This document shows positions 6,137 through 19,088 of a DNA stretch of 29,118 nucleotides, one piece after another. How positions within the stretch are numbered: the first letter of the stretch is position 1; every line of letters starts with the position of its first letter. The translations under genes were made by a program, and so were the position numbers. Source of the DNA: a virus; the IMG/VR virus record IMGVR_UViG_3300044237_004441, positions 1 to 29,118 of that record. One strand, written 5' to 3'. Under the pieces are notes generated by a model, which made no database searches, had not been told where the DNA came from, and worked only from the letters and a program-made list of their open reading frames with translations.

Positions 6137-6156
6137 GTTTGTATAATATGGTTATG
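6137..6156 (+). promoter_or_regulatory. Promoter-like motif ending at the dpdA start codon
   Basis: GTTTGTATAATATGGTTATG aligns with the copies at 16721, 19125 and 21449: TTTNGTATA then six or seven bases and GTTATG, where ATG is the start codon. It has a TATAAT box. By this alignment the start is 6154 and not the upstream ATG at 6148. Confidence 0.5.
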
Positions 6157-6957
6157 AAAGTAAGTCACGAGGTACCTAGATGTTTACTATTAGCATCTCA
6201 AGAATTTAATGATTATGATTATTGTCTGCCTCACTTACTAGATAAAGATGAGGAATATAAACAATATTTTTTTGATGCTAAAAAATCCGGAAGATATATT
6301 ATTATGGATAATTCGCTTCATGAATTAGGAGAAGCTTATGATTATGGTAGATTATTACATTGGGTTAAAGAATTAAAACCTAATGAGTTTATTGTTCCTG
6401 ATGTCTGGATGGAAGGTCACCAAACAGCAGCTCAAGCTAAGTATTGGAAACAATATAAATATCCAAAAGGAACTAAAATTACAGCTGTAATTCAGGGTAA
6501 AGATTCCGATGATGCTTTTTTATGTGCTAGTTTATTACAAAATTTGGGTTATGAAAAATTATGTGTTTCATATGGTGCAACTTGGTATAATGATTGTTTT
6601 ATCCATTCAAACCCAGATATGGGTAAAGCATTAGGTAGAGTTAGATTTGTTCAAGAACTATTAGAAATGAAAAGGTATAAAAATATTAAATTTCATTTGT
6701 TAGGTTGTTCCATACCTCAAGAATTTGGTTGGTATGATAATCACCCACAAATAGAGTCCATAGATACTTCTAATCCTGTTATGGCGGCTCTAGAAGGAGA
6801 ATTATATGATGAAAGAGGTTTAAGTAAAAAACCAAAAGCCAATATGAATGATCATTTTGATATTAAGTTTGAAGATGTAGATTATCAAAGTATAATGCAT
6901 AATACAACTTTATTTAGAGAAATAAATAATATTCCTAAAATTAATGAGTATGTATAA
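6154..6957 (+). CDS. dpdA: DpdA-like DNA guanine transglycosylase
   Basis: The 267-residue product resembles phage members of the queuine tRNA-ribosyltransferase superfamily that insert 7-deazaguanines into DNA (DpdA). Visible TGT-like landmarks in order are IIMDNS (Asp52), VPDVW (Asp83), VIQG (Gln114, Gly115), SYGATW (about 139-144) and SIDTSNP (Asp204), the last in the position of the nucleophilic aspartate of TGT. It lacks the zinc-site Cys motif of tRNA TGTs, as expected for short phage DpdA. It would exchange guanine in phage DNA for the base made by FolE2, QueD, QueE and QueC, all encoded within the next 5 kb, releasing free guanine. The start is set by the promoter-like motif; ATG 6148 is possible. 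Family assignment comes from motifs and context; the subfamily (DpdA1 to DpdA4) cannot be decided here. Confidence 0.8.
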   Translation: MKVSHEVPRCLLLASQEFNDYDYCLPHLLDKDEEYKQYFFDAKKSGRYIIMDNSLHELGEAYDYGRLLHWVKELKPNEFIVPDVWMEGHQTAAQAKYWKQYKYPKGTKITAVIQGKDSDDAFLCASLLQNLGYEKLCVSYGATWYNDCFIHSNPDMGKALGRVRFVQELLEMKRYKNIKFHLLGCSIPQEFGWYDNHPQIESIDTSNPVMAALEGELYDERGLSKKPKANMNDHFDIKFEDVDYQSIMHNTTLFREINNIPKINEYV

Positions 6958-7020: not shown

Positions 7021-7815
7021 ATGAGTAAACACGCAGTTGTTTCGCTAAGTGGCGGGATGGATAGTTCCACACTTTTACTCAGAGCGTTATCTGAGTATGA
7101 TTCAGTTACAGCTTTATCTTTTGATTATGGTCAAAAACATAGAGTTGAACTACAAAGAGCACAGTCTCTTATAGATTATTTAGCTAGTAAAGGTCACAAT
7201 GTAACATATAAGCAAATTAAACTTGATGGTTTAGTTGACTTATTAAACTCTTCCTTAGTACAAGGTGGGGATGACGTTCCAGAAGGTCATTACGAGCAAG
7301 ATAACATGAAAGAAACAGTAGTACCTAATAGAAATAAAATGTTCGCTTCAATTACACAAGCAGTAGCTTTATCTAAAGCAAATGCTACACAGGAGCAAGT
7401 TGATATTTGTTTAGGAATACATGCTGGTGATCATGCAGTTTATCCTGATTGTAGACAAGAATTTAGGGATGCAGATGATGCAGCCTTTAGAATTGGTAAT
7501 TGGGAAGCTGAAAGAGTAGGTTACTTTACACCTTATCTTGATACTGATAAACTTGGTATCTTACAGGATGGTTTAGTTTTATGTGATGAATTAAATATAG
7601 ATTTTGATGATGTTTATAAGAGAACAAATACATCTTATAAACCTTATCCAAGTGGTAATTCTGATTATAAATCAGCATCATCGGTTGAGAGAATTGAGGC
7701 ATTTATAGCATTAGGGAGACCTGATCCTGTTCAATACGAAGATGAAACAGGTCCTGTTTCTTATGAAGTAGCAAAAGCTTCAGTTGAAAAAGTATTAGCT
7801 GAATACTCAGCATAG
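7021..7815 (+). CDS. queC: QueC-like 7-cyano-7-deazaguanine synthase with degenerate zinc site
   Basis: The 264-residue product has the ATP pyrophosphatase PP-loop SGGMDSST (residues 10-17) and the segment FDYGQKHRVEL typical of QueC, which turns 7-carboxy-7-deazaguanine (CDG) into preQ0 with ATP and ammonia through an amide intermediate (ADG). Near the C-terminus, QueC proteins carry four zinc-binding cysteines (C then CXXCXXC). Here the equivalents are Ser205, Asp215, Ser218 and Ser221 (codons TCT, GAT, TCA, TCG), with the following VER and the ALGRPDPV segment preserved. The frame is intact and the downstream motif is in register, so this is replacement and not frameshift. It may fold without zinc, stop at ADG, or have another substrate. 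The tRNA-Gln gene follows by six bases. Confidence 0.85.
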   Translation: MSKHAVVSLSGGMDSSTLLLRALSEYDSVTALSFDYGQKHRVELQRAQSLIDYLASKGHNVTYKQIKLDGLVDLLNSSLVQGGDDVPEGHYEQDNMKETVVPNRNKMFASITQAVALSKANATQEQVDICLGIHAGDHAVYPDCRQEFRDADDAAFRIGNWEAERVGYFTPYLDTDKLGILQDGLVLCDELNIDFDDVYKRTNTSYKPYPSGNSDYKSASSVERIEAFIALGRPDPVQYEDETGPVSYEVAKASVEKVLAEYSA

Positions 7816-7821
7816 TACAAT

Positions 7822-7892
7822 TGTCTCATGGTGTAATGGTAGCACAGCTGGTTTTGGTCCAGCTAGTTAAGGTTCGAGTCCTTATGAGACTA
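7822..7892 (+). tRNA. trnQ: tRNA-Gln (anticodon UUG)
   Basis: A 71-nt cloverleaf can be folded: acceptor TGTCTCA with TGAGACT, D arm around TGGTGTAATGGTAGCACA, anticodon stem GCTGG/CCAGC with loop TTTTGGT (anticodon TTG at 7854-7856, reading CAA), and T arm TAAGG/CCTTA with loop TTCGAGT. CCA is not encoded. The terminal pair reads T1-T72, a mismatch where tRNA-Gln usually has a weak U-A pair. CAA is clearly the favoured Gln codon in the neighbouring phage genes, which fits a codon-supply role. It lies inside the deazaguanine cluster, but a UUG anticodon is not a queuosine substrate (those are GUN). Confidence 0.92.
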
Positions 7893-7900
7893 CTAATAAT

Positions 7901-8231: not shown

Positions 8232-8476
8232 AACAAATTATTTATTTTACAGCAAAATGGTGTGGTCCTTGCCGAACATTAGGACCGATAATGGAAGGTC
8301 TTTCTAGTGAATTAAATATTAGAAGAGTAGATGTTGATCAAGACAGAGAACTCTCAACTAAATATGGAATAAGATCAGTTCCAGCATTAGTTTTAGTTAA
8401 TGAAGCTGGTGAAGAGATAAAAAGATCAATAGGTGTTCAATCTCGTGAAGTAATAAAAGAATGGTATAATGGGTAA
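8228..8476 (+). CDS. Thioredoxin / glutaredoxin-like protein
   Basis: The 82-residue product is a compact thioredoxin fold: strand IIYFTA, then the classical active site WCGPC (residues 12-16), strand RRVDVDQD, the cis-proline loop SVPALVLV (about 56-63) and a C-terminal helix. It is shorter than the usual 105-110 residues because the N-terminal helix is missing, as in many phage thioredoxins. It is cytosolic (no signal peptide) and could reduce the phage ribonucleotide reductase, whose tail is at the window start, or serve an enzyme in this cluster. It overlaps the next gene by eight bases. Confidence 0.88.
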   Translation: MKQIIYFTAKWCGPCRTLGPIMEGLSSELNIRRVDVDQDRELSTKYGIRSVPALVLVNEAGEEIKRSIGVQSREVIKEWYNG

Positions 8477-8933
8477 ATTTCAATCAAGTAAAGTATTTGA
8501 CGGATTTAGTACAGTGTTTCGTCAATGGAAAGCAGAAACAACACACTGTAGATTTGTTCATGGATATGGTATTTCATTTAAAGTTTACTTTGAAGGTGAC
8601 CTAGACGAAAGAAATTGGGTTTGGGATTTTGGAGGAATGAAGAGAGCAAAAACTCAAATTGACGGTAAATCCCCTAAAGAATGGATGGATTATATGTTTG
8701 ATCATACTCTAATAGTTGCTGAGGATGATCCATTTATAAAAGCATTTCAACAAATGGAGGAAGCAGGAGTTGCACAGGTAAGAATCATACCAGCAACTGG
8801 TGCAGAAAAGTTTGCTGAATATATTTATAATAAGCTTAATGAGTTTGTTGATACCGAAACTGAAGGTAGAGTTAGAGTTACCAAAGTTAAGTTCATGGAA
8901 CATGGTAAAAATGCAGCTTGTTACGTAGAATAA
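8469..8933 (+). CDS. queD: QueD-like 6-carboxy-tetrahydropterin synthase
   Basis: The 154-residue product belongs to the 6-pyruvoyl-tetrahydropterin synthase family; it should convert 7,8-dihydroneopterin triphosphate (from FolE2) to 6-carboxytetrahydropterin, the second step to 7-deazaguanines. Visible landmarks are THCRFVHGYG (His26, Cys27, His31), WVWDFGGMK (about 51-59), FDHTLIV (about 78-84) and a C-terminal VKFMEHGKNAACYVE with the acid that binds the pterin. The classical HGH is HGY here (Tyr33), and the first zinc His of the usual FSAAH motif seems replaced by His26. I recall the same variant in a subgroup of this family from alphaproteobacteria and marine phages, so this is probably functional. 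It lies between the thioredoxin gene and queE. Confidence 0.85.
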   Translation: MGKFQSSKVFDGFSTVFRQWKAETTHCRFVHGYGISFKVYFEGDLDERNWVWDFGGMKRAKTQIDGKSPKEWMDYMFDHTLIVAEDDPFIKAFQQMEEAGVAQVRIIPATGAEKFAEYIYNKLNEFVDTETEGRVRVTKVKFMEHGKNAACYVE

Positions 8934-8976: not shown

Positions 8977-9759
8977 ATGCACAAACAATTAAAAAGAATA
9001 GAGGACTATCAAAAGACTCTAGGGGTGTTAGAACTTTACACCGCGGTACAATCAGAAGGTTCAAGACAAGGTTATCCTACAATTGTTGTTAGAACATCAG
9101 GATGCACACATAGATGTTATTTTGGAGAAGGTGGATGGTGTGATTCTTGGTATACAAGTATCCATCCAGAAAAAGGTACTTATTGTTTCCAAGATATTAT
9201 AGACATGTATGATGCAAATCCTCATATTAAGGAAATGATGTTAACAGGGGGTTCTCCTACAATGCATCCTGCTTTAGTAAATGAACTTACACATTTTGCG
9301 AACGATAGAGAAATTTTTATTACAATTGAAACAGAAGGATCCCATTTTCTTCCTACCGATTATCCTATTAATTTGCTATCTATTAGTCCTAAGTTTAGCA
9401 ACAGTATTCCAGTGGTGGGAGCTATAACTCCTCAAGGTGCTGTTGTAGACGAAAAGATGGTTAAGAAACATAATTCAAAAAGAATGAATTTAGAAGCCAT
9501 TAAACAATCTATTGAATATCATTCCGATTATCATATCAAACCAGTAATAGATAAAGAATTATCTATGATTCCTGAAGTAGATGAAATGATTGAAAAATTA
9601 GGAATACCAGCAGAAAAAGTTTGGGCAATGCCTGCTGGTGATGATAGAAAGTCATTAATGGAATCTTATCCTATAGTTATGAATTTTGTCAGAGATAAGG
9701 GATGGCGTTTTACAGGACGATCTCATATAATGGCATTTAACACTGAAAGATGTGTCTAG
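8977..9759 (+). CDS. queE: QueE-like radical SAM 7-carboxy-7-deazaguanine synthase
   Basis: The 260-residue product shows the QueE layout: an N-terminal LYTAVQSEGSRQGYPTIVVRTSGC, the radical SAM cysteines, LTGGSPTMHP (about 89-98), an IETEGS strand, SPKFS, KPVID, and a C-terminal RSHIMAFNTERCV like the RLHxxxWGxxRGV end of QueE. It would contract 6-carboxytetrahydropterin to 7-carboxy-7-deazaguanine using SAM and a 4Fe-4S cluster. The cluster cysteines are Cys43, Cys47 and Cys55, that is CX3CX7C with a Gly-rich insert, instead of the usual CX3CX2C; CDS directly after Cys55 is the conserved position. A small gene overlaps its end. Confidence 0.87.
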   Translation: MHKQLKRIEDYQKTLGVLELYTAVQSEGSRQGYPTIVVRTSGCTHRCYFGEGGWCDSWYTSIHPEKGTYCFQDIIDMYDANPHIKEMMLTGGSPTMHPALVNELTHFANDREIFITIETEGSHFLPTDYPINLLSISPKFSNSIPVVGAITPQGAVVDEKMVKKHNSKRMNLEAIKQSIEYHSDYHIKPVIDKELSMIPEVDEMIEKLGIPAEKVWAMPAGDDRKSLMESYPIVMNFVRDKGWRFTGRSHIMAFNTERCV

Positions 9760-9889
9760 AGAGGAAGCACTAGAAATTTTAGAGGAAATAGAGGAAAATG
9801 TAGGTGTTTGTTGTGCTATTACAATGGAGCCAGATGAAGTATTAGTCCTTATTGATAAATTAAAAAATTATTTAGAAAATGAATCTTAA
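9752..9889 (+). CDS. Small acidic protein (45 aa), GTG start
   Basis: Between queE and the oxygenase gene there is an open frame of 45 codons from GTG 9752, overlapping queE by eight bases and the next gene by eleven. The product (MSREEALEILEEIEENVG at the start) is acidic and helical with a central CC pair. The overlaps on both sides match the gene packing of the window, which supports it, but the start codon is not ATG and nothing is known of its function. Confidence 0.5.
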   Translation: MSREEALEILEEIEENVGVCCAITMEPDEVLVLIDKLKNYLENES

Positions 9890-10514
9890 AGATATAGTAG
9901 GCATTTATGATGACGTTTTTACGGAATCAGAATGTAAAGTTCTAATGTATAAATTAGAAGAAGCAATAAAAAATGGGACGGCTTATAAGGGAGCTCATGC
10001 AGGTGTAGGGGAATTAAAAGTATCTACAGATTATGATATTCTTTCTGATGATAATAATCAGATGATTTCTAATTTAGTTATGGAAAAATTTAATAGTACC
10101 TTATCTAATGTATATTTAGAAAATACTTTATACGTTGATGATTATAATAACCATAGATTAGTTAATGGTCACACGTATTATCCACTACTACAAATCCAAA
10201 AATATAATAAAAATAATGGACACTATAATACTTGGCATGTAGAAGCTGAAAATTATCCTTCAAGCGACAGAGCCTTTGTTTTTATTTTATATCTTAATGA
10301 TGTTGAAGAAGGTGGGGAAACTGGATTTTTATTTAAAGAGGATAATGATTGGTTTAAAGTAAAACCAAAAACAGGAAGATTAATAATTCATCCTGCTCAA
10401 TTTCCTTTTATACATAAAGGTTATATGCCAAAATCATCTGACAAATATATTTTAACAACTTGGTTATGTTGGAAAGATTTAAGTCAGGAACAAAATCCCT
10501 TGTTTATTAACTAA
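9879..10514 (+). CDS. 2OG-Fe(II) oxygenase, prolyl 4-hydroxylase-like
   Basis: The 211-residue product has the double-stranded beta-helix signature of this superfamily: an N-terminal IVGIYDDVFTESEC, the metal pair WHVE (His120, Glu122), YLNDVEEGGETGF (about 139-151), and a distal PFIHKGYMPKSSDKYILTTW with His179 and a basic 2-oxoglutarate anchor. Glu in place of Asp in HxD is uncommon but tolerated in some members. Such enzymes hydroxylate proteins, small molecules or bases. Position between queE and folE2 makes modification of the deazaguanine or of DNA an attractive idea (inference); T4-like marine phages carry many such genes with unknown targets. Confidence 0.8.
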   Translation: MNLKDIVGIYDDVFTESECKVLMYKLEEAIKNGTAYKGAHAGVGELKVSTDYDILSDDNNQMISNLVMEKFNSTLSNVYLENTLYVDDYNNHRLVNGHTYYPLLQIQKYNKNNGHYNTWHVEAENYPSSDRAFVFILYLNDVEEGGETGFLFKEDNDWFKVKPKTGRLIIHPAQFPFIHKGYMPKSSDKYILTTWLCWKDLSQEQNPLFIN

Positions 10515-10531
10515 ATTTTTATTATATTGAT

Positions 10532-11560
10532 ATGAACAAAATGAATAAATTTGAAAAAAAATACGAATGGGTTGGAGATGTAGACTCCTATAAAGAAGCT
10601 GAACCTAATGAACATTCGGTAAAATATAATGAACCGAATAGAGATTATGATTCTGATTACAAACCAACAAAAGAGGATATTGAAACATTTCCTGATTTAC
10701 AAAATGGTCCCTCTTCATTAATTCAGGGCTCACCTGTAGAAATTCAACAAGTAGGTATTCATAATTTTAGATTACCTCTGAAATATAGTACTAGAGATAA
10801 TGGTGATATAGAATTAGAAACTAAGGTAACAGGTACTGTGTCTTTAGAAGCACATAAAAAAGGTATTAATATGTCTCGTATTATGAGATCATTTTATGAG
10901 TTTAGGAATGATACTTTTAGTATAGATAAATTAAAAGATATTTTATACGCCTATAAAGAAAAATTAAACACGTTTGATTCTAAAATTGCACTTAAATTTT
11001 CTTATCCTATTATTAAAAAATCACTAAGATCAGATAATGAAGGCTACCAGTATTATAATGTTACTTTGGAGGGTGGTTTAGATAAGGAAGGTGATTTAAA
11101 AAAGTATATTCATTTTGATTTTGTTTATTCTTCAGCTTGTCCTTGTTCCTATGAATTAGCTGAGTATGCTAGAAAATATAGAAATAAGGCCACAGTATCA
11201 CATTCCCAAAGATCAGTAGCCAGAATATCTATTGAATTTGAGGATATGGTTTGGATAGAGGAATTACAAGAAATGTGTGATAGAGCTCTTAATACAGAAA
11301 CTCAAGTAGTAGTAAAAAGAGAAGATGAAATGGCGTTTGCCGAGCTTAATGGTTCATATCTTAAATTTGTAGAAGATGCTGCTAGATTATTATATGAGCA
11401 ATTAATTGCAGATAAAAGAATAAAAGATTTTAGGGTAATATGTTCACACCAGGAATCACTTCATTCACATGATGCTATTTCTGTTATATTACACCCTAAT
11501 AGTAAGTTTTGCCCAGATGTTTCTCACGAAACATGGTCAAGTTTAATTCATATATCTTAA
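10532..11560 (+). CDS. folE2: GTP cyclohydrolase IB, FolE2 type
   Basis: The 342-residue product resembles FolE2, the metal-dependent GTP cyclohydrolase that makes 7,8-dihydroneopterin triphosphate, the entry to the deazaguanine pathway. Landmarks in order: VGIHNFRLPLKY (about 73-84), a long TVSLEAHKKGINMSRIM (compare KGxHMSR of the family), SSACPCSYELAEY with Cys203 and Cys205, a HSQRSVA segment, and near the end QESLHSHDAISV, matching the ExxHxHxA signature. The first 65 residues are an acidic, low-complexity extension not usual in the family. It overlaps nothing and is followed directly by the phosphoribosyltransferase ATG. QueF, which shares the T-fold, is excluded by the CPCS and HSHDA motifs. 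Confidence 0.85.
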   Translation: MNKMNKFEKKYEWVGDVDSYKEAEPNEHSVKYNEPNRDYDSDYKPTKEDIETFPDLQNGPSSLIQGSPVEIQQVGIHNFRLPLKYSTRDNGDIELETKVTGTVSLEAHKKGINMSRIMRSFYEFRNDTFSIDKLKDILYAYKEKLNTFDSKIALKFSYPIIKKSLRSDNEGYQYYNVTLEGGLDKEGDLKKYIHFDFVYSSACPCSYELAEYARKYRNKATVSHSQRSVARISIEFEDMVWIEELQEMCDRALNTETQVVVKREDEMAFAELNGSYLKFVEDAARLLYEQLIADKRIKDFRVICSHQESLHSHDAISVILHPNSKFCPDVSHETWSSLIHIS

Positions 11561-11965
11561 ATGGATAATAAAGTTTATGTAACATGGGGTCAAGTATATA
11601 AGTTACTTGATAAAATTCATGAACAAGTAGGAAGTGAAATTGATTTAGTTGCTGGTATTCCCAGAGGTGGAACCTTATTAGCTATTTTATATTCACATAG
11701 ATATGGAGTAGAATATACGGAATGGCCTAATGATAAGTATCCTCACCTTTTAATTTTAGATGATATTGCTGATACGGGTAAAACTTTAAAAATATGGCAA
11801 GATAAAATAAGTGTTCCTTATTATGCCACTTTACATTATAAAAGAAGTTCTATTGTAGAACCTGACTTTTATGGAAAAAAATTAATAAAAGAAGATAAAT
11901 GGATAGTTTATCCATGGGAGAGAAAAGATTCTAAACCAATTCAAGATTATTTAAAAAATGAGTGA
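11561..11965 (+). CDS. Purine-type phosphoribosyltransferase
   Basis: The 134-residue product has the PRPP-binding signature LLILDDIADTGKTL (about residues 63-76) and the upstream loop LVAGIPRGGTLLA (29-41), as in hypoxanthine/xanthine-guanine phosphoribosyltransferases (base plus PRPP to nucleoside monophosphate). It is short and lacks a long hood domain, so the base cannot be told from sequence. It starts directly after the folE2 stop and overlaps the MazG-like gene by eight bases. The DpdA reaction should free guanine from DNA, so salvage of guanine to GMP would close the cycle (inference). Confidence 0.8.
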   Translation: MDNKVYVTWGQVYKLLDKIHEQVGSEIDLVAGIPRGGTLLAILYSHRYGVEYTEWPNDKYPHLLILDDIADTGKTLKIWQDKISVPYYATLHYKRSSIVEPDFYGKKLIKEDKWIVYPWERKDSKPIQDYLKNE

Positions 11966-12542
11966 ACAATTAAAATTATTTAACGTAGATACAGAAGTTT
12001 ATAGAGTTATGTCAGTTAAGGGAGCTGTACCTTTTGTAGATGAAGTGGAAGAATTTAACTCTACATTTAAAAAACCTAATAATTATGAACCAACGATACC
12101 GAAGGAAAAGAAGGAGTGGCAATTCGTATACGACTTTGTACTTGAAGAACTGGAAGAATATAGACAAGCTTGCCAAAACGGAGACATCGTGGAAATTTTG
12201 GATGCTTTGTGTGATATTACTTATGTTTCCCTTGGGAACGGGGTTATGTTACATGGCCTTAAAGATAAGATATGGCCGGCATATCAAGAGGTACAAGCAT
12301 CGAATTTGTCGAAGTCTTGTAGCACTGAGGAAGAAGCCATGGAAACTGTCACCCTCCGTTCTAAAGAACAAGCTGAGTCATGTCATTATGAGCAAGTAGA
12401 AGATAGATTTGTTGTATATAGATCAAGGGATAGAAAAGTTATGAAATCAATAAATTATTTTAGACCTAATTTACGCCAATTTTTCACTGAAGAAGAAATA
12501 GATAAATGTAGACCTAATTACGATCCAGGAACTATTATATAA
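11958..12542 (+). CDS. MazG-like nucleotide pyrophosphohydrolase
   Basis: The 194-residue product has an all-alpha NTP pyrophosphohydrolase core: EELEEY (residues 64-69), then a helix with DIVEILDALCDITYV (76-90) that gives the EXXD-type metal site (Glu79, Asp82, Asp86), as in MazG/HisE-like enzymes that hydrolyse (d)NTPs to monophosphates. Phages use such enzymes to shape nucleotide pools or (p)ppGpp. A C-terminal extension (about 130-194) is unlike the core family. Bases 12181-12360 have about 43% G+C against 25-30% around, with different codon choice, as if that part was acquired separately. Its stop overlaps the polymerase ATG (TAATG). Confidence 0.75.
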   Translation: MSEQLKLFNVDTEVYRVMSVKGAVPFVDEVEEFNSTFKKPNNYEPTIPKEKKEWQFVYDFVLEELEEYRQACQNGDIVEILDALCDITYVSLGNGVMLHGLKDKIWPAYQEVQASNLSKSCSTEEEAMETVTLRSKEQAESCHYEQVEDRFVVYRSRDRKVMKSINYFRPNLRQFFTEEEIDKCRPNYDPGTII

Positions 12543-14245
12543 TGTATAAAAAGTGTTACGCTAGTAGAATAAAAAATAACAAATATAAAATCCATTTATG
12601 GGATGATATTGGTTATGATGAAATAGTTTGGTATGACACTGCTTATGAGCAAAATAAAGATGGAAAGTATACTGGAGTTGATGGAGTAAAATTAAGTAAA
12701 ACAACTAATTGGGATAGAAATGATCTTGGATTATATTTTCAAGATATGAAACCACACCAAAAATATTTAGTTGAAAGATATGGGACAGCAGATGAACCCT
12801 CAACATCACATAAAGAATTATTTTTTGATATTGAGTGTGAAATAGGAGGTGCTTTAACTGAAGAATATATTGAAAATGCTCCGATGCCTATTACATCAAT
12901 AGCTTGGTGGTATAAACAAAAAGACGAGTGGGCTATATTAATTCTAGATAAAAAAAACCAACTTAAACATACTAAAGCCAGAAATAAAGAAATTATACCA
13001 TGTAAAACTGAATCTGAATTATTAGCAACATTTTTAGAAAAGTTTAGAGAGATTGATCCTGATATTCTAGTAGGTTATAATAGTGATTTCTTTGATATAC
13101 CTTATCTATATTATAGAATGTGTAATGTATTAGGAAATGAATGGGCTGATCATTTATCACCACTTACTAAAGTAAATGCTAAAAAAGGTAATGATTATTT
13201 CTTTAAACGTAATCAATTTGTAGATATTATTGGTGTGGAATCATTAGACTATATTAGATTACATAAAAAATATAGCTGGAAAGATGAACCAAGTTGGAAA
13301 TTAGATGCAATAGGAGAAAAATATACAGGAATAGGTAAGGTGGAGTATGAAGGTAATTTGGATCAATTATTTGAAACTGATATTCATAAATTTATTCAAT
13401 ATAATTTTCGTGATGTAGAAATATTAAAACTATTAGATGAAAAATTACAATATTTAGCTTTAACTAAAAACTTATCTCATAAAGGTAAACATAATTATAG
13501 TGAAGTTTATTCTAATAGCATTACACAAGATGGAGCTATATCAGCCTATCTACTATCACAAGGAATTGTTCCACCTGCTAGGCATAGAAACCCTAAAGCT
13601 AAAAAAGGTTATGCTGGTGGTTATTTGTTTTGCCCCCAAGCTGGATTATATAAATACATGTTTGATGAAGATTTAACATCGCTATATCCATCTATAATTA
13701 TGTCTTTAAACATAGGTAGGGAAACTTTCAAGGGACGTATCATAGATGCTGATGATCGCAATAATAGATTGGGTTTAAACGATTTAAAAGAACGTGACCC
13801 TGAAGAAGAATTATTAGTAGAAAATGATAAAAAACAACAAACTAGAGTTAATGTAGGTAGATTAATAGCTATGATTGAGCAAAATAATCTAGCTATATCA
13901 GCTAATGGTTGTTTATTTTCTACTGATAAAGAATCTACATTATCAACTGTTTTAAATAAATGGTTTGATGAAAGAGTAAAATATAAGAATGAAATGAAAA
14001 AAGCATATAAATCTGGAGATAAAGAAAAGGGTGCTTATTATCATTTAATGCAATACACAATGAAAATTTTATTAAATAGTTTATATGGTGCTACAGCATT
14101 ACCTGGATTTAGATATGGCTTACCAGAATCTATTTTAAGTGAATCCATTACTCTAACAGGTTGGAGAATAATCCAGGAAAGTGCTTTATGTGCTAATAGA
14201 CATATGAATAAAGTAATTAAAAATGAAGTTAAATTAAATATATAA
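12542..14245 (+). CDS. 43A: DNA polymerase family B (gp43-like), N-terminal part: exonuclease and Pol motifs A and B
   Basis: The 567-residue product carries the proofreading exonuclease motifs FFDIECE (Asp96, Glu98), NSDFFD (Asn180, Asp185) and YNFRD (Asp291), then Pol motif A DLTSLYPSI (from Asp377) and motif B KILLNSLYG (Lys508 to Gly516). It stops 51 residues after motif B, before the catalytic motif C. Motif C is found in a separate gene at 15779. The two together give about 880 residues, the size of T4 gp43 (898). The C-terminal piece must bind to rebuild the palm domain. Split gene 43 is known in some Aeromonas T4-like phages, where a homing endonuclease is involved; none is visible here. 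Confidence 0.93.
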   Translation: MYKKCYASRIKNNKYKIHLWDDIGYDEIVWYDTAYEQNKDGKYTGVDGVKLSKTTNWDRNDLGLYFQDMKPHQKYLVERYGTADEPSTSHKELFFDIECEIGGALTEEYIENAPMPITSIAWWYKQKDEWAILILDKKNQLKHTKARNKEIIPCKTESELLATFLEKFREIDPDILVGYNSDFFDIPYLYYRMCNVLGNEWADHLSPLTKVNAKKGNDYFFKRNQFVDIIGVESLDYIRLHKKYSWKDEPSWKLDAIGEKYTGIGKVEYEGNLDQLFETDIHKFIQYNFRDVEILKLLDEKLQYLALTKNLSHKGKHNYSEVYSNSITQDGAISAYLLSQGIVPPARHRNPKAKKGYAGGYLFCPQAGLYKYMFDEDLTSLYPSIIMSLNIGRETFKGRIIDADDRNNRLGLNDLKERDPEEELLVENDKKQQTRVNVGRLIAMIEQNNLAISANGCLFSTDKESTLSTVLNKWFDERVKYKNEMKKAYKSGDKEKGAYYHLMQYTMKILLNSLYGATALPGFRYGLPESILSESITLTGWRIIQESALCANRHMNKVIKNEVKLNI

Positions 14246-15181: not shown

Positions 15182-15782
15182 TAAAGATTTAGGATTAATT
15201 TATTGGGCAACTGCTGGATGTGCCAGTAGAGTTGGTTTAGGAGTATTTGATAGTTTAGGTGATAGATATACTTGGTATCCCTGGTTAAATGAGGAAAAAT
15301 TATTAGATTCATTCTTACATGATCAAGGTATTCCTCCTTTTTGTGATGATTATCAAATTATTTGTGCTATAAGAAATCCATACACCAGAGCGGTTTCTGC
15401 TTATATTGATCTAGTAGATGAGGGATATAGTAAGAGTTTTAAAGAATATTGCTTTCAAGATAGATATAATGACTACCCAAATGATAAAGATTTATTTTAT
15501 TGGTATGAATGGAAAGATTTAAAAGTTCCTGATTATTTTATTAGATTAGAACATATGGTAGAAGATTGGAAGAAAATTATTTCAATCCAAGATAAAATAG
15601 GTAATATTAAAGAAAAAACAAATATAAACCCAGTAGCAGGAGAAAAACCACTTGATGAATATGACGTGAATGGGCACCAAAAGGTTACTAGATTTATGGA
15701 TCAGGAAGTTGCTGATTTAATCTATAAAAAAGATAATATAATTTTTAAATTAGGTAACTACGATAAAGAAAGTTGGAAATGA
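15171..15782 (+). CDS. Sulfotransferase-like protein in the polymerase split
   Basis: The 203-residue product has a sulfotransferase-type start: a strand LIYWATAGCASRVG (about residues 7-20), in the place of the 5'-phosphosulfate loop, and AIRNPYTRAVSAYIDLV (about 65-81), like the 3'-phosphate-binding RNPxxRxxSxY motif that binds PAPS. It would move sulfate to a carbohydrate or similar acceptor; the acceptor is unknown. The loop is not a canonical PKxGTT form. Its TGA overlaps the ATG of the polymerase C-terminal part (ATGA), so translation of the two may be coupled. Its presence inside a split replicase gene is the striking feature. Confidence 0.7.
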   Translation: MNYNKDLGLIYWATAGCASRVGLGVFDSLGDRYTWYPWLNEEKLLDSFLHDQGIPPFCDDYQIICAIRNPYTRAVSAYIDLVDEGYSKSFKEYCFQDRYNDYPNDKDLFYWYEWKDLKVPDYFIRLEHMVEDWKKIISIQDKIGNIKEKTNINPVAGEKPLDEYDVNGHQKVTRFMDQEVADLIYKKDNIIFKLGNYDKESWK

Positions 15783-16714
15783 AATATTTAGAAGAAACAC
15801 CCTGGTTTATCTGCGATAAAGAGGATACTAATTATTGTGCTTATGTGGACACGGATTCGAACTACTTTAATGCTGAACCTATTTTACTTCATTTGGTTCC
15901 TAATTTTGAAGAACTATCAGATGAAGAAAAAGATAGCAAGTTGGAAAAAGTCGCTTTGGCTTACCAAGATATTATAACAGACCATTATGATAAATTAGCT
16001 AAGGACTGTTTTAATGTTTCTTCTCATAGATTAGAAATGAAAACAGAATGTGTTATTCGTTCTGCTTATTTTAGAGCTACTAGAAGATATGCTCAATGGA
16101 TTACTAAACAAGAAGGTATTGCTAAAGAAACTTTAGATATTAAAGGTTTAGAATTTATGAAGGCAAATTTTCCTCCTATTTTAGGAGAATTCTTTAATGA
16201 TATTTTACAACAAGTATTAAAGGGAGAAGAAAAAGATTCTATAATTCAACAAATAAAAGATTTTAAAGTTAAAATACTTGATGGATCCATTTCATTAGCT
16301 AAACTGGGTAACCCAACAGCAGTAAAAAAATTACAAAAATACTCTGGTCGAAAACCTAGAGCGGGAGAATTATTTACTGAAATATTAAAAGGAGCACCCG
16401 CACCTGTAAGAGCAGCAATTCGTTATAATGATTTACTTAAATTATGGAAGTTAGATAGAAAGTATAATTTAATTACAATGGCTGATAAGGTTAAATGGAT
16501 TTATCTAAAAGATAATCCATATAAAATAGAATCATTGGCTTTTTTTGATTATGATATGCCTGATAAAATAAAACAATTTTTAAATTCATACGCGGATAGA
16601 AAAAAAGTATTTAATTCTATATTATTAAATAAATTAGAAGGATTTTTTAGTGATTTACAATGGAGTTTAGATTTAAACCCATATATAAATGCATTTGATT
16701 CCTTTGAAGTATAA
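15779..16714 (+). CDS. 43B: DNA polymerase family B (gp43-like), C-terminal part: Pol motif C and thumb
   Basis: The 311-residue product begins a short way before the catalytic motif C YVDTDS (residues 22-27, Asp24 and Asp26), followed by a KKRY-like segment RATRRYAQW and the thumb region, and ends with a C-terminal helix that in T4 gp43 contacts the clamp. The ATG at 15779 overlaps the preceding TGA (ATGA) and is preferred over an upstream TTG. It cannot work alone, because exonuclease and motifs A and B are in the gene at 12542. The sliding clamp gene follows after 23 bases with its own promoter-like motif. Confidence 0.92.
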   Translation: MKYLEETPWFICDKEDTNYCAYVDTDSNYFNAEPILLHLVPNFEELSDEEKDSKLEKVALAYQDIITDHYDKLAKDCFNVSSHRLEMKTECVIRSAYFRATRRYAQWITKQEGIAKETLDIKGLEFMKANFPPILGEFFNDILQQVLKGEEKDSIIQQIKDFKVKILDGSISLAKLGNPTAVKKLQKYSGRKPRAGELFTEILKGAPAPVRAAIRYNDLLKLWKLDRKYNLITMADKVKWIYLKDNPYKIESLAFFDYDMPDKIKQFLNSYADRKKVFNSILLNKLEGFFSDLQWSLDLNPYINAFDSFEV

Positions 16715-18665: not shown

Positions 18666-19088
18666 ATGAGTACATTAGAAATCTTTGAAAGGCATATAAG
18701 TCCTTTCGACATCCTTTTTAGGAATCACTTTAAATCTGACAGCACATTTCAACCTGTTGGAAATTTCAAACAACCACATCCACTTAATATTTTCTTTGAC
18801 GATGCAGGGCTTCATTTTGAAGTTGCTTGTACTGGTCTTACTAAAAAAGACGTAGTATTAGATATAGAAGGGGATATTTTAAAAATTAGTTATACTAAAC
18901 CAGAAAAAGAAGAATTTCATGAAGGAATGATTCATAATGGTTTATCTAAAAAGTCATTTGATTTAAGGTATAAAATAGCACCTAAATTTAATTTGGGTAA
19001 TATTGATGCTACTTTAACAAATGGATTATTAGAAATTTTTATACCATTAGCTGAAGAGGCTAAACCAAAATCTATTAAGATTAAATAA
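18666..19088 (+). CDS. Small heat-shock protein, Hsp20/alpha-crystallin family
   Basis: The 140-residue product has a variable N-terminal arm, then an alpha-crystallin domain: PLNIFFDDAGLHFEVACTGLTKKDVVLDIEGDILKISY (about residues 38-75), and the strand with NGLLEIFIPL (about 119-128), ending in a short tail with an I-K-I motif that can bind the domain groove in oligomers. It holds unfolding proteins in an ATP-independent way. It precedes the GroES and GroEL genes. Hsp20 genes are also common in T4-like cyanophages. Confidence 0.9.
   Translation: MSTLEIFERHISPFDILFRNHFKSDSTFQPVGNFKQPHPLNIFFDDAGLHFEVACTGLTKKDVVLDIEGDILKISYTKPEKEEFHEGMIHNGLSKKSFDLRYKIAPKFNLGNIDATLTNGLLEIFIPLAEEAKPKSIKIK

Follow-up and report, generated by a model that had tools for sequence, protein, structure and literature searches.

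A phage QueC lacking all four zinc-binding cysteines is probably a working preQ0 synthase

Results

A zinc-less QueC within a 7-deazaguanine gene cluster

Judged from its sequence, its relatives and its gene neighbours, the queC gene of the marine phage fragment analysed here (the window, 29,118 bases of a virus record) probably specifies a functional preQ0 synthase that no longer needs structural zinc. The four-cysteine motif counts as a QueC hallmark, and a 2026 family study called zinc required for QueC function, natural zinc-less proteins lying outside the tests of that study (PMC13329287). An abundant marine phage clade, as well as marine group II archaea and planctomycetes, nevertheless carry QueCs without this motif that retain the other parts of the enzyme and, it appears, its product. 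No description of a zinc-less QueC was found in the literature searched. The gene is part of the following cluster, and the neighbours DpdA, QueD, QueE and FolE2 make the pathway complete, which argues for a preQ0 synthase.

6154–6957, plus strand: dpdA-like DNA guanine transglycosylase (AlphaFold model and sequence identity; start at 6154 inferred from relatives)
7021–7815, plus strand: queC, zinc-less 7-cyano-7-deazaguanine synthase, 264 residues (PF06508; TIGR00364 below cut-off; catalytic signature)
8469–8933, plus strand: queD, 6-carboxytetrahydropterin synthase, with replacements at two of its three usual zinc histidines (PF01242)
8977–9759, plus strand: queE, radical SAM protein, CDG synthase (TIGR03365, E=4e-13; phrog_2076)
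9879–10514, plus strand: 2OG-Fe(II) oxygenase within the cluster (PF13640; found in 7 of 82 loci)
10532–11560, plus strand: folE2, GTP cyclohydrolase IB, where most relatives have folE1 (PF02649, E=6e-70; NF010200 above cut-off)
11561–11965, plus strand: phosphoribosyltransferase of the cluster (PF00156; conserved synteny)
11958–12542, plus strand: MazG/PRA-PH-like pyrophosphohydrolase of the cluster (PF01503; phrog_671)

The catalytic signature of QueC is retained

The 264-residue reading frame at 7021–7815 matches PF06508 (E=3.5e-38), identifying it as a QueC homologue, and also phrog_1550, while it scores 128 bits against the NCBIfam QueC equivalog TIGR00364, below the cut-off of 150.3. The published catalytic signature of QueC comprises SGGxDS, YxQxHxxE, VPxRN, YPDC, K165 and Y189, and the E. 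coli variant Y189A is inactive (PMC13329287). The window protein reads SGGMDS at the PP-loop, YGQKHRVE, VPNRN and YPDC, with Lys177 and Tyr206 as the equivalents of E. coli Lys165 and Tyr189. Each of these positions is invariant in 38 zinc-less phage QueCs and in 16 QueCs from archaea and planctomycetes, changes being confined to the zinc ligands. The window protein thus shares PP-loop, motifs and the K165 and Y189 equivalents with canonical QueCs of PF06508 cluster 1, such as those of B. subtilis (3bl5) and Erwinia (2pg3), and the presence of queD and queE nearby is the neighbourhood of canonical queC. It differs from them in the loss of all four zinc cysteines, in its sub-threshold TIGR00364 score and in its greater length, with an inserted and a C-terminal segment. 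A tRNA-Gln gene (anticodon TTG, 7822–7893) lies directly 3' of queC.

All four zinc-ligand positions are replaced

Alignment with motif-keeping QueCs places Ser205, Asp215, Ser218 and Ser221 at the positions of the zinc cysteines: the motif-keeping locus L115 reads TRTCYKDQVLSCGKCGSCVERLEAF, and the aligned window protein reads TNTSYKPYPSGNSDYKSASSVERIEAF. The corresponding codons, together with that of the retained tyrosine, are as follows.

7633–7635, plus strand: Ser205 codon, zinc ligand position 1 (alignment; TCN and AGY codons in relatives)
7636–7638, plus strand: Tyr206 codon, equivalent of E. coli Tyr189, kept (alignment)
7663–7665, plus strand: Asp215 codon, zinc ligand position 2 (alignment)
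7672–7674, plus strand: Ser218 codon, zinc ligand position 3 (alignment)
7681–7683, plus strand: Ser221 codon, zinc ligand position 4 (alignment)

A column check returned S, D, S, S in 38 of 38 relatives and C, C, C, C in 22 of 22 canonical QueCs. The window protein therefore carries S, D, S, S in place of the canonical C(x)8CxxCxxC motif. A preliminary description of this DNA had reported the replacement of all four cysteines beside an intact PP-loop, and its coordinates and residues proved correct. Its statement that the motif spacing is kept holds for the last three positions and not for the first interval, which is x9 in the window instead of the published x8 and extends up to about 30 residues in relatives. 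The same column check over 38 relatives identified no newly conserved cysteine or histidine in the zinc-less phage clade, hence no obvious replacement zinc site, and a substitute site elsewhere in QueC was rejected. The window protein itself contains three cysteines (130, 144 and 188).

Structural modelling was performed with AlphaFold2 on 80 sequences, such models being built without metals. Mean pLDDT is 93.7 for the whole protein and about 95 for residues 200–225, which correspond to the old zinc knuckle. Model residues 2–234 superpose on B. subtilis QueC (3bl5) with Z 20.1 and 2.5 Å over 188 residues, consistent with a QueC fold; the scores are Z 19.0 with 2pg3 and Z 20.2 with Cap9 (9nto). 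The knuckle fold is thus predicted to persist without zinc.

The zinc-less segment is under strong purifying selection

The motif TNTSYK...SDYKSASSVER is nearly letter-identical in the best 80 IMG/VR relatives, whose QueCs are 74–91% identical to that of the window, and in Flavobacterium phage immuto (68%). All related marine-phage QueCs examined are without the cysteines, which establishes the phage clade sharing the loss that the preliminary description had proposed to look for. At the three serine positions, TCN and AGY codons are both in use and no other amino acid occurs among 82 phages, and pairwise dN/dS against the window queC is 0.08–0.13. The use of both serine codon boxes together with a dN/dS of about 0.1 indicates that the zinc-less segment is actively maintained. 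It is under strong purifying selection, and its loss of ligands reflects neither chance nor decay. That queC is a decaying relic has nothing in its favour beyond the ligand loss itself; given an intact frame, the low dN/dS and a motif invariant across 82 phages, the selection data rule this reading out, and we assign it practically no probability.

Zinc-less QueCs of archaea and planctomycetes, and repeated loss

A scan of bacterial and archaeal genomes revealed a subfamily that shares about 50% identity with the window QueC along most of the protein. Its members are found in Pirellulaceae-type planctomycetes and in marine group II archaea (Poseidoniales, Thalassarchaea), and none of these archaeal and planctomycete QueCs has the zinc cysteines, their own replacements (S, S/H/D, S/T, D) differing from the S, D, S, S of the phages. 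Two further QueCs of this subfamily keep Cys4: L182, encoded in a Bacteroidetes MAG, and L176, in a Pseudomonadota MAG. The zinc-less protein is the sole full-length QueC in 21 of 24 subfamily genomes, which are draft MAGs from whose assemblies a second copy could be missing; the exceptions are both Cys4 genomes and a MAG with two QueCs (G052). The sole-copy pattern nonetheless recurs from one genome to the next. A tRNA-guanine transglycosylase is encoded in 23 of the 24 and QueF in all five planctomycetes, and in two archaeal loci (L166, L168) the zinc-less queC sits within a folE-queE-queC-queD run. The simplest reading is that zinc-less QueC would supply preQ0 for tRNA in these organisms. 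Several Poseidoniales QueCs, unlike that of the window, are fused C-terminally to an MsrB (SelR) domain, as seen in L161 and L166.

In a maximum-likelihood QueC tree computed with the zinc-motif columns left out, the window clade (support 100/99), archaea (98/87), planctomycetes (100/97) and Iggy-type phages (100/95) each form one group. The Iggy-type Queuovirinae QueCs (Iggy, PSASB_03, RHph_X3_2, 83AMN) resemble the window protein in lacking zinc cysteines and belonging to a phage preQ0 cluster, but carry a different motif, SYDGxYPPTxxNHSNLLRA, and form a separate clade, sister to the Cys4-keeping QueCs of CAjan and phiSM and distant from the window clade. This position implies that zinc was lost at least twice, and in the tree the Iggy-type loss is clearly separate from that of the window clade. 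Within the window's own subfamily, the best tree requires more than one loss, since the Cys4 members L176 and L182 fall inside the group, whereas an AU test of a single loss for the phage and archaeal/planctomycete branches (p 0.195) leaves one loss possible.

Genomic context points to preQ0 as the product

QueF reduces the nitrile of preQ0 and so requires preQ0. Of 40 phage records that carry this QueC, 18 encode QueF as well, with QueCs 68–86% identical to that of the window. The catalytic segment CxxTxQPDW is kept in all QueFs read out, and in immuto matches to both QueF domains were obtained. No QueF was seen in window-type phages, in which DpdA adjoins QueC, so the end product of these phages is judged from QueF-bearing relatives at most 86% identical. 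Phage immuto has a formyltransferase-like gene (L102:7040–7567) placed between its dpdA and queF genes; the encoded protein might alter preQ1 further in DNA.

Reference phages with analysed DNA offer a second comparison. The host of phage Iggy, P. aeruginosa, encodes a QueC of its own, so this phage lends support and does not make a clean test. The only QueC of Iggy is zinc-less, and dPreQ0 was reported in the DNA of this phage (Olsen et al. 2023, as cited in PMC11945000 and PMC11008142). DNA of Campylobacter phages CP220/CPt10 was reported as 100% dADG (PMC8306585). The QueC of Campylobacter phage CP21, of this dADG group, has Cys4 intact, so loss of the cysteines and the presence of ADG do not go hand in hand. 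Four lines thus point to preQ0 as the probable product: co-occurrence with QueF, the cellular genomes with a sole zinc-less copy, Iggy, and Cys4 in the dADG phage group.

The three alternatives offered in the preliminary description, and the final base it drew from them, fare differently in this light. Stability without zinc is supported by a confident model of the knuckle that superposes on solved QueCs, by the lack of new cysteines or histidines and by the clade-wide loss. An enzyme that stops at ADG finds no support, given QueF in 18 of the 40 records, the sole-copy genomes and the retention of all catalytic residues; nor does a different substrate, in view of QueF co-occurrence and of 21 cellular genomes with this as sole QueC, nearly all with a TGT. 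ADG or CDG as the final base fits neither the Cys4 QueC of the dADG phage group nor, as far as the citing papers report it, the dPreQ0 of Iggy, and a product change of this kind was rejected on QueF co-occurrence, sole-copy genomes and these reference phages.

Proposed mechanism and alternative explanations

The best reading of a QueC stable without zinc is metal-free packing in place of the structural zinc. The serine and aspartate side chains and a new helix cap, SDYKSASSVER, would hold the knuckle by hydrogen bonds and packing, replacing the Cys4-zinc site, and the enzyme would still run both ATP-dependent steps, CDG to ADG to preQ0, with ammonia. The adjacent DpdA would then exchange guanine for preQ0 in phage DNA, and in the QueF-bearing sister phages DpdA would insert preQ1-type bases. 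Zinc loss would accordingly alter the needs of the protein and not its product, a plausible benefit being that the phage need not rely on host zinc in sea water.

Continued metal binding is an unlikely alternative, be it weak binding at the old site through Ser, Asp and water, binding of another metal there, or zinc held elsewhere in the protein. Asp can serve as a metal ligand, Asp215 is invariant in the phages, and the archaeal QueCs have an invariant Asp of their own at ligand position 4; serine, however, is a poor zinc ligand, the replacement patterns of phages and archaea differ, and neither the phage clade, with no newly conserved Cys or His, nor the window protein, with its three cysteines, offers other ligands. 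Release of ADG after the first step, with DpdA placing ADG into DNA, is improbable as well. It would agree with the absence of QueF from window-type phages and with the window DpdA being closest, immuto aside (36% identity), to the proteins of the dADG phages CP220/CPt10 (35–36%). The CP21 protein of that very group keeps its cysteines, though, QueF accompanies QueCs up to 86% identical to that of the window, every residue required for preQ0 formation is kept, and a zinc-less Iggy-type QueC goes with dPreQ0 in the report cited above. The likeness of DpdA to that of the Campylobacter phages raises the separate possibility that full replacement of G occurs in the window phage too.

Use of another substrate, for instance CDG joined to a protein N-terminus as thought for Cap9/QatC, we regard as very improbable. 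In its favour, the model matches Cap9 just as closely as QueC, and there are earlier cases of re-use within the family (PMC13329287, PMC13279940). Against it, queC belongs with dpdA to a complete preQ0 cluster, neither a CD-NTase nor a QatB-like partner was seen, and Cap9 and QatC keep their zinc cysteines, so that zinc loss points elsewhere. These anti-phage homologues share the QueC-like fold and PP-loop, but reside in defence operons, and QatC is without the CDG-binding motifs. The C(x)19CGxCxxRR motif, the long N- and C-terminal extensions and the qatA/qatD neighbours of QatC are absent from the 264-residue protein and its preQ0 cluster; Cap9 is shorter (about 185 residues), with a cysteine motif that is lacking here, and no CD-NTase occurs among the cluster genes. 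LarE (PF06508 cluster 3) has a three-cysteine Fe-S motif and no QueC motifs, all of which are present in the window protein, and no amidotransferase family match as in Gat-QueC, which acts in dG+ synthesis, was found in it. A metal-free preQ0 synthase remains our preferred reading.

If correct, the zinc of QueC would be structural and dispensable. Such proteins will be overlooked or misassigned by annotation rules that demand the cysteines, and a changed DNA base must not be deduced from ligand loss alone. Other bacteria have ribosomal protein paralogues that work without zinc. Together with FolE2, these Zur-regulated proteins are a precedent for the replacement of a zinc protein by a zinc-free one, but they are stand-by copies of a zinc form, whereas zinc-less QueC is the only copy here. 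The FolE2 class replaces zinc-dependent FolE1 in zinc-starvation regulons (PMC6103462).

Zinc sites in the remainder of the pathway and other features of the window

The model of the window DpdA (pLDDT 91.7) aligns to TGTs and to the DpdA structure 7ui4, a DNA preQ0 insertase (Z 16.4, 3.3 Å, 232 residues). No cysteine follows its catalytic Asp, and a TGT-type Cys3His zinc site is therefore absent. QueD reads FRQWKAETTHCRFVHGYG: at positions that we take to correspond to the E. coli zinc ligands, two of the three histidines are replaced by Phe and Tyr, while the catalytic Cys and Asp-His/Glu are kept and a new invariant His adjoins the catalytic Cys. A PDB sequence search with the window QueD returned no QueD match. 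Iggy and two Cellulophaga phages, phiST and phiSM, have this type of QueD too, in phiSM beside a Cys4 QueC. FolE2 occurs only in the window, L007 and L029 among the loci searched.

Judged by sequence, the window lacks all canonical zinc sites of the pathway: FolE2 stands in for FolE1, QueD is minus two His, QueC minus Cys4 and DpdA minus Cys3His. More tentatively, every step between GTP and 7-deazaguanine DNA might do without its usual zinc sites in this phage, which we consider possible and on balance doubtful; if so, the phage would modify its DNA by a zinc-free pathway, as would suit sea water poor in zinc. A pathway of this kind general to all relatives was rejected, FolE1 being present in 34 of 40 related records, with the usual zinc ligands kept in the FolE1s read out. 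The 2OG-Fe(II) oxygenase of the cluster might modify the inserted base.

Outside the cluster, a family B DNA polymerase is apparently split into two genes (12542–14245 and 15773–16714, the second with YVDTDS) with four reading frames between them. A small heat-shock-like protein, GroES and GroEL are encoded consecutively by the phage at 18666–21441.
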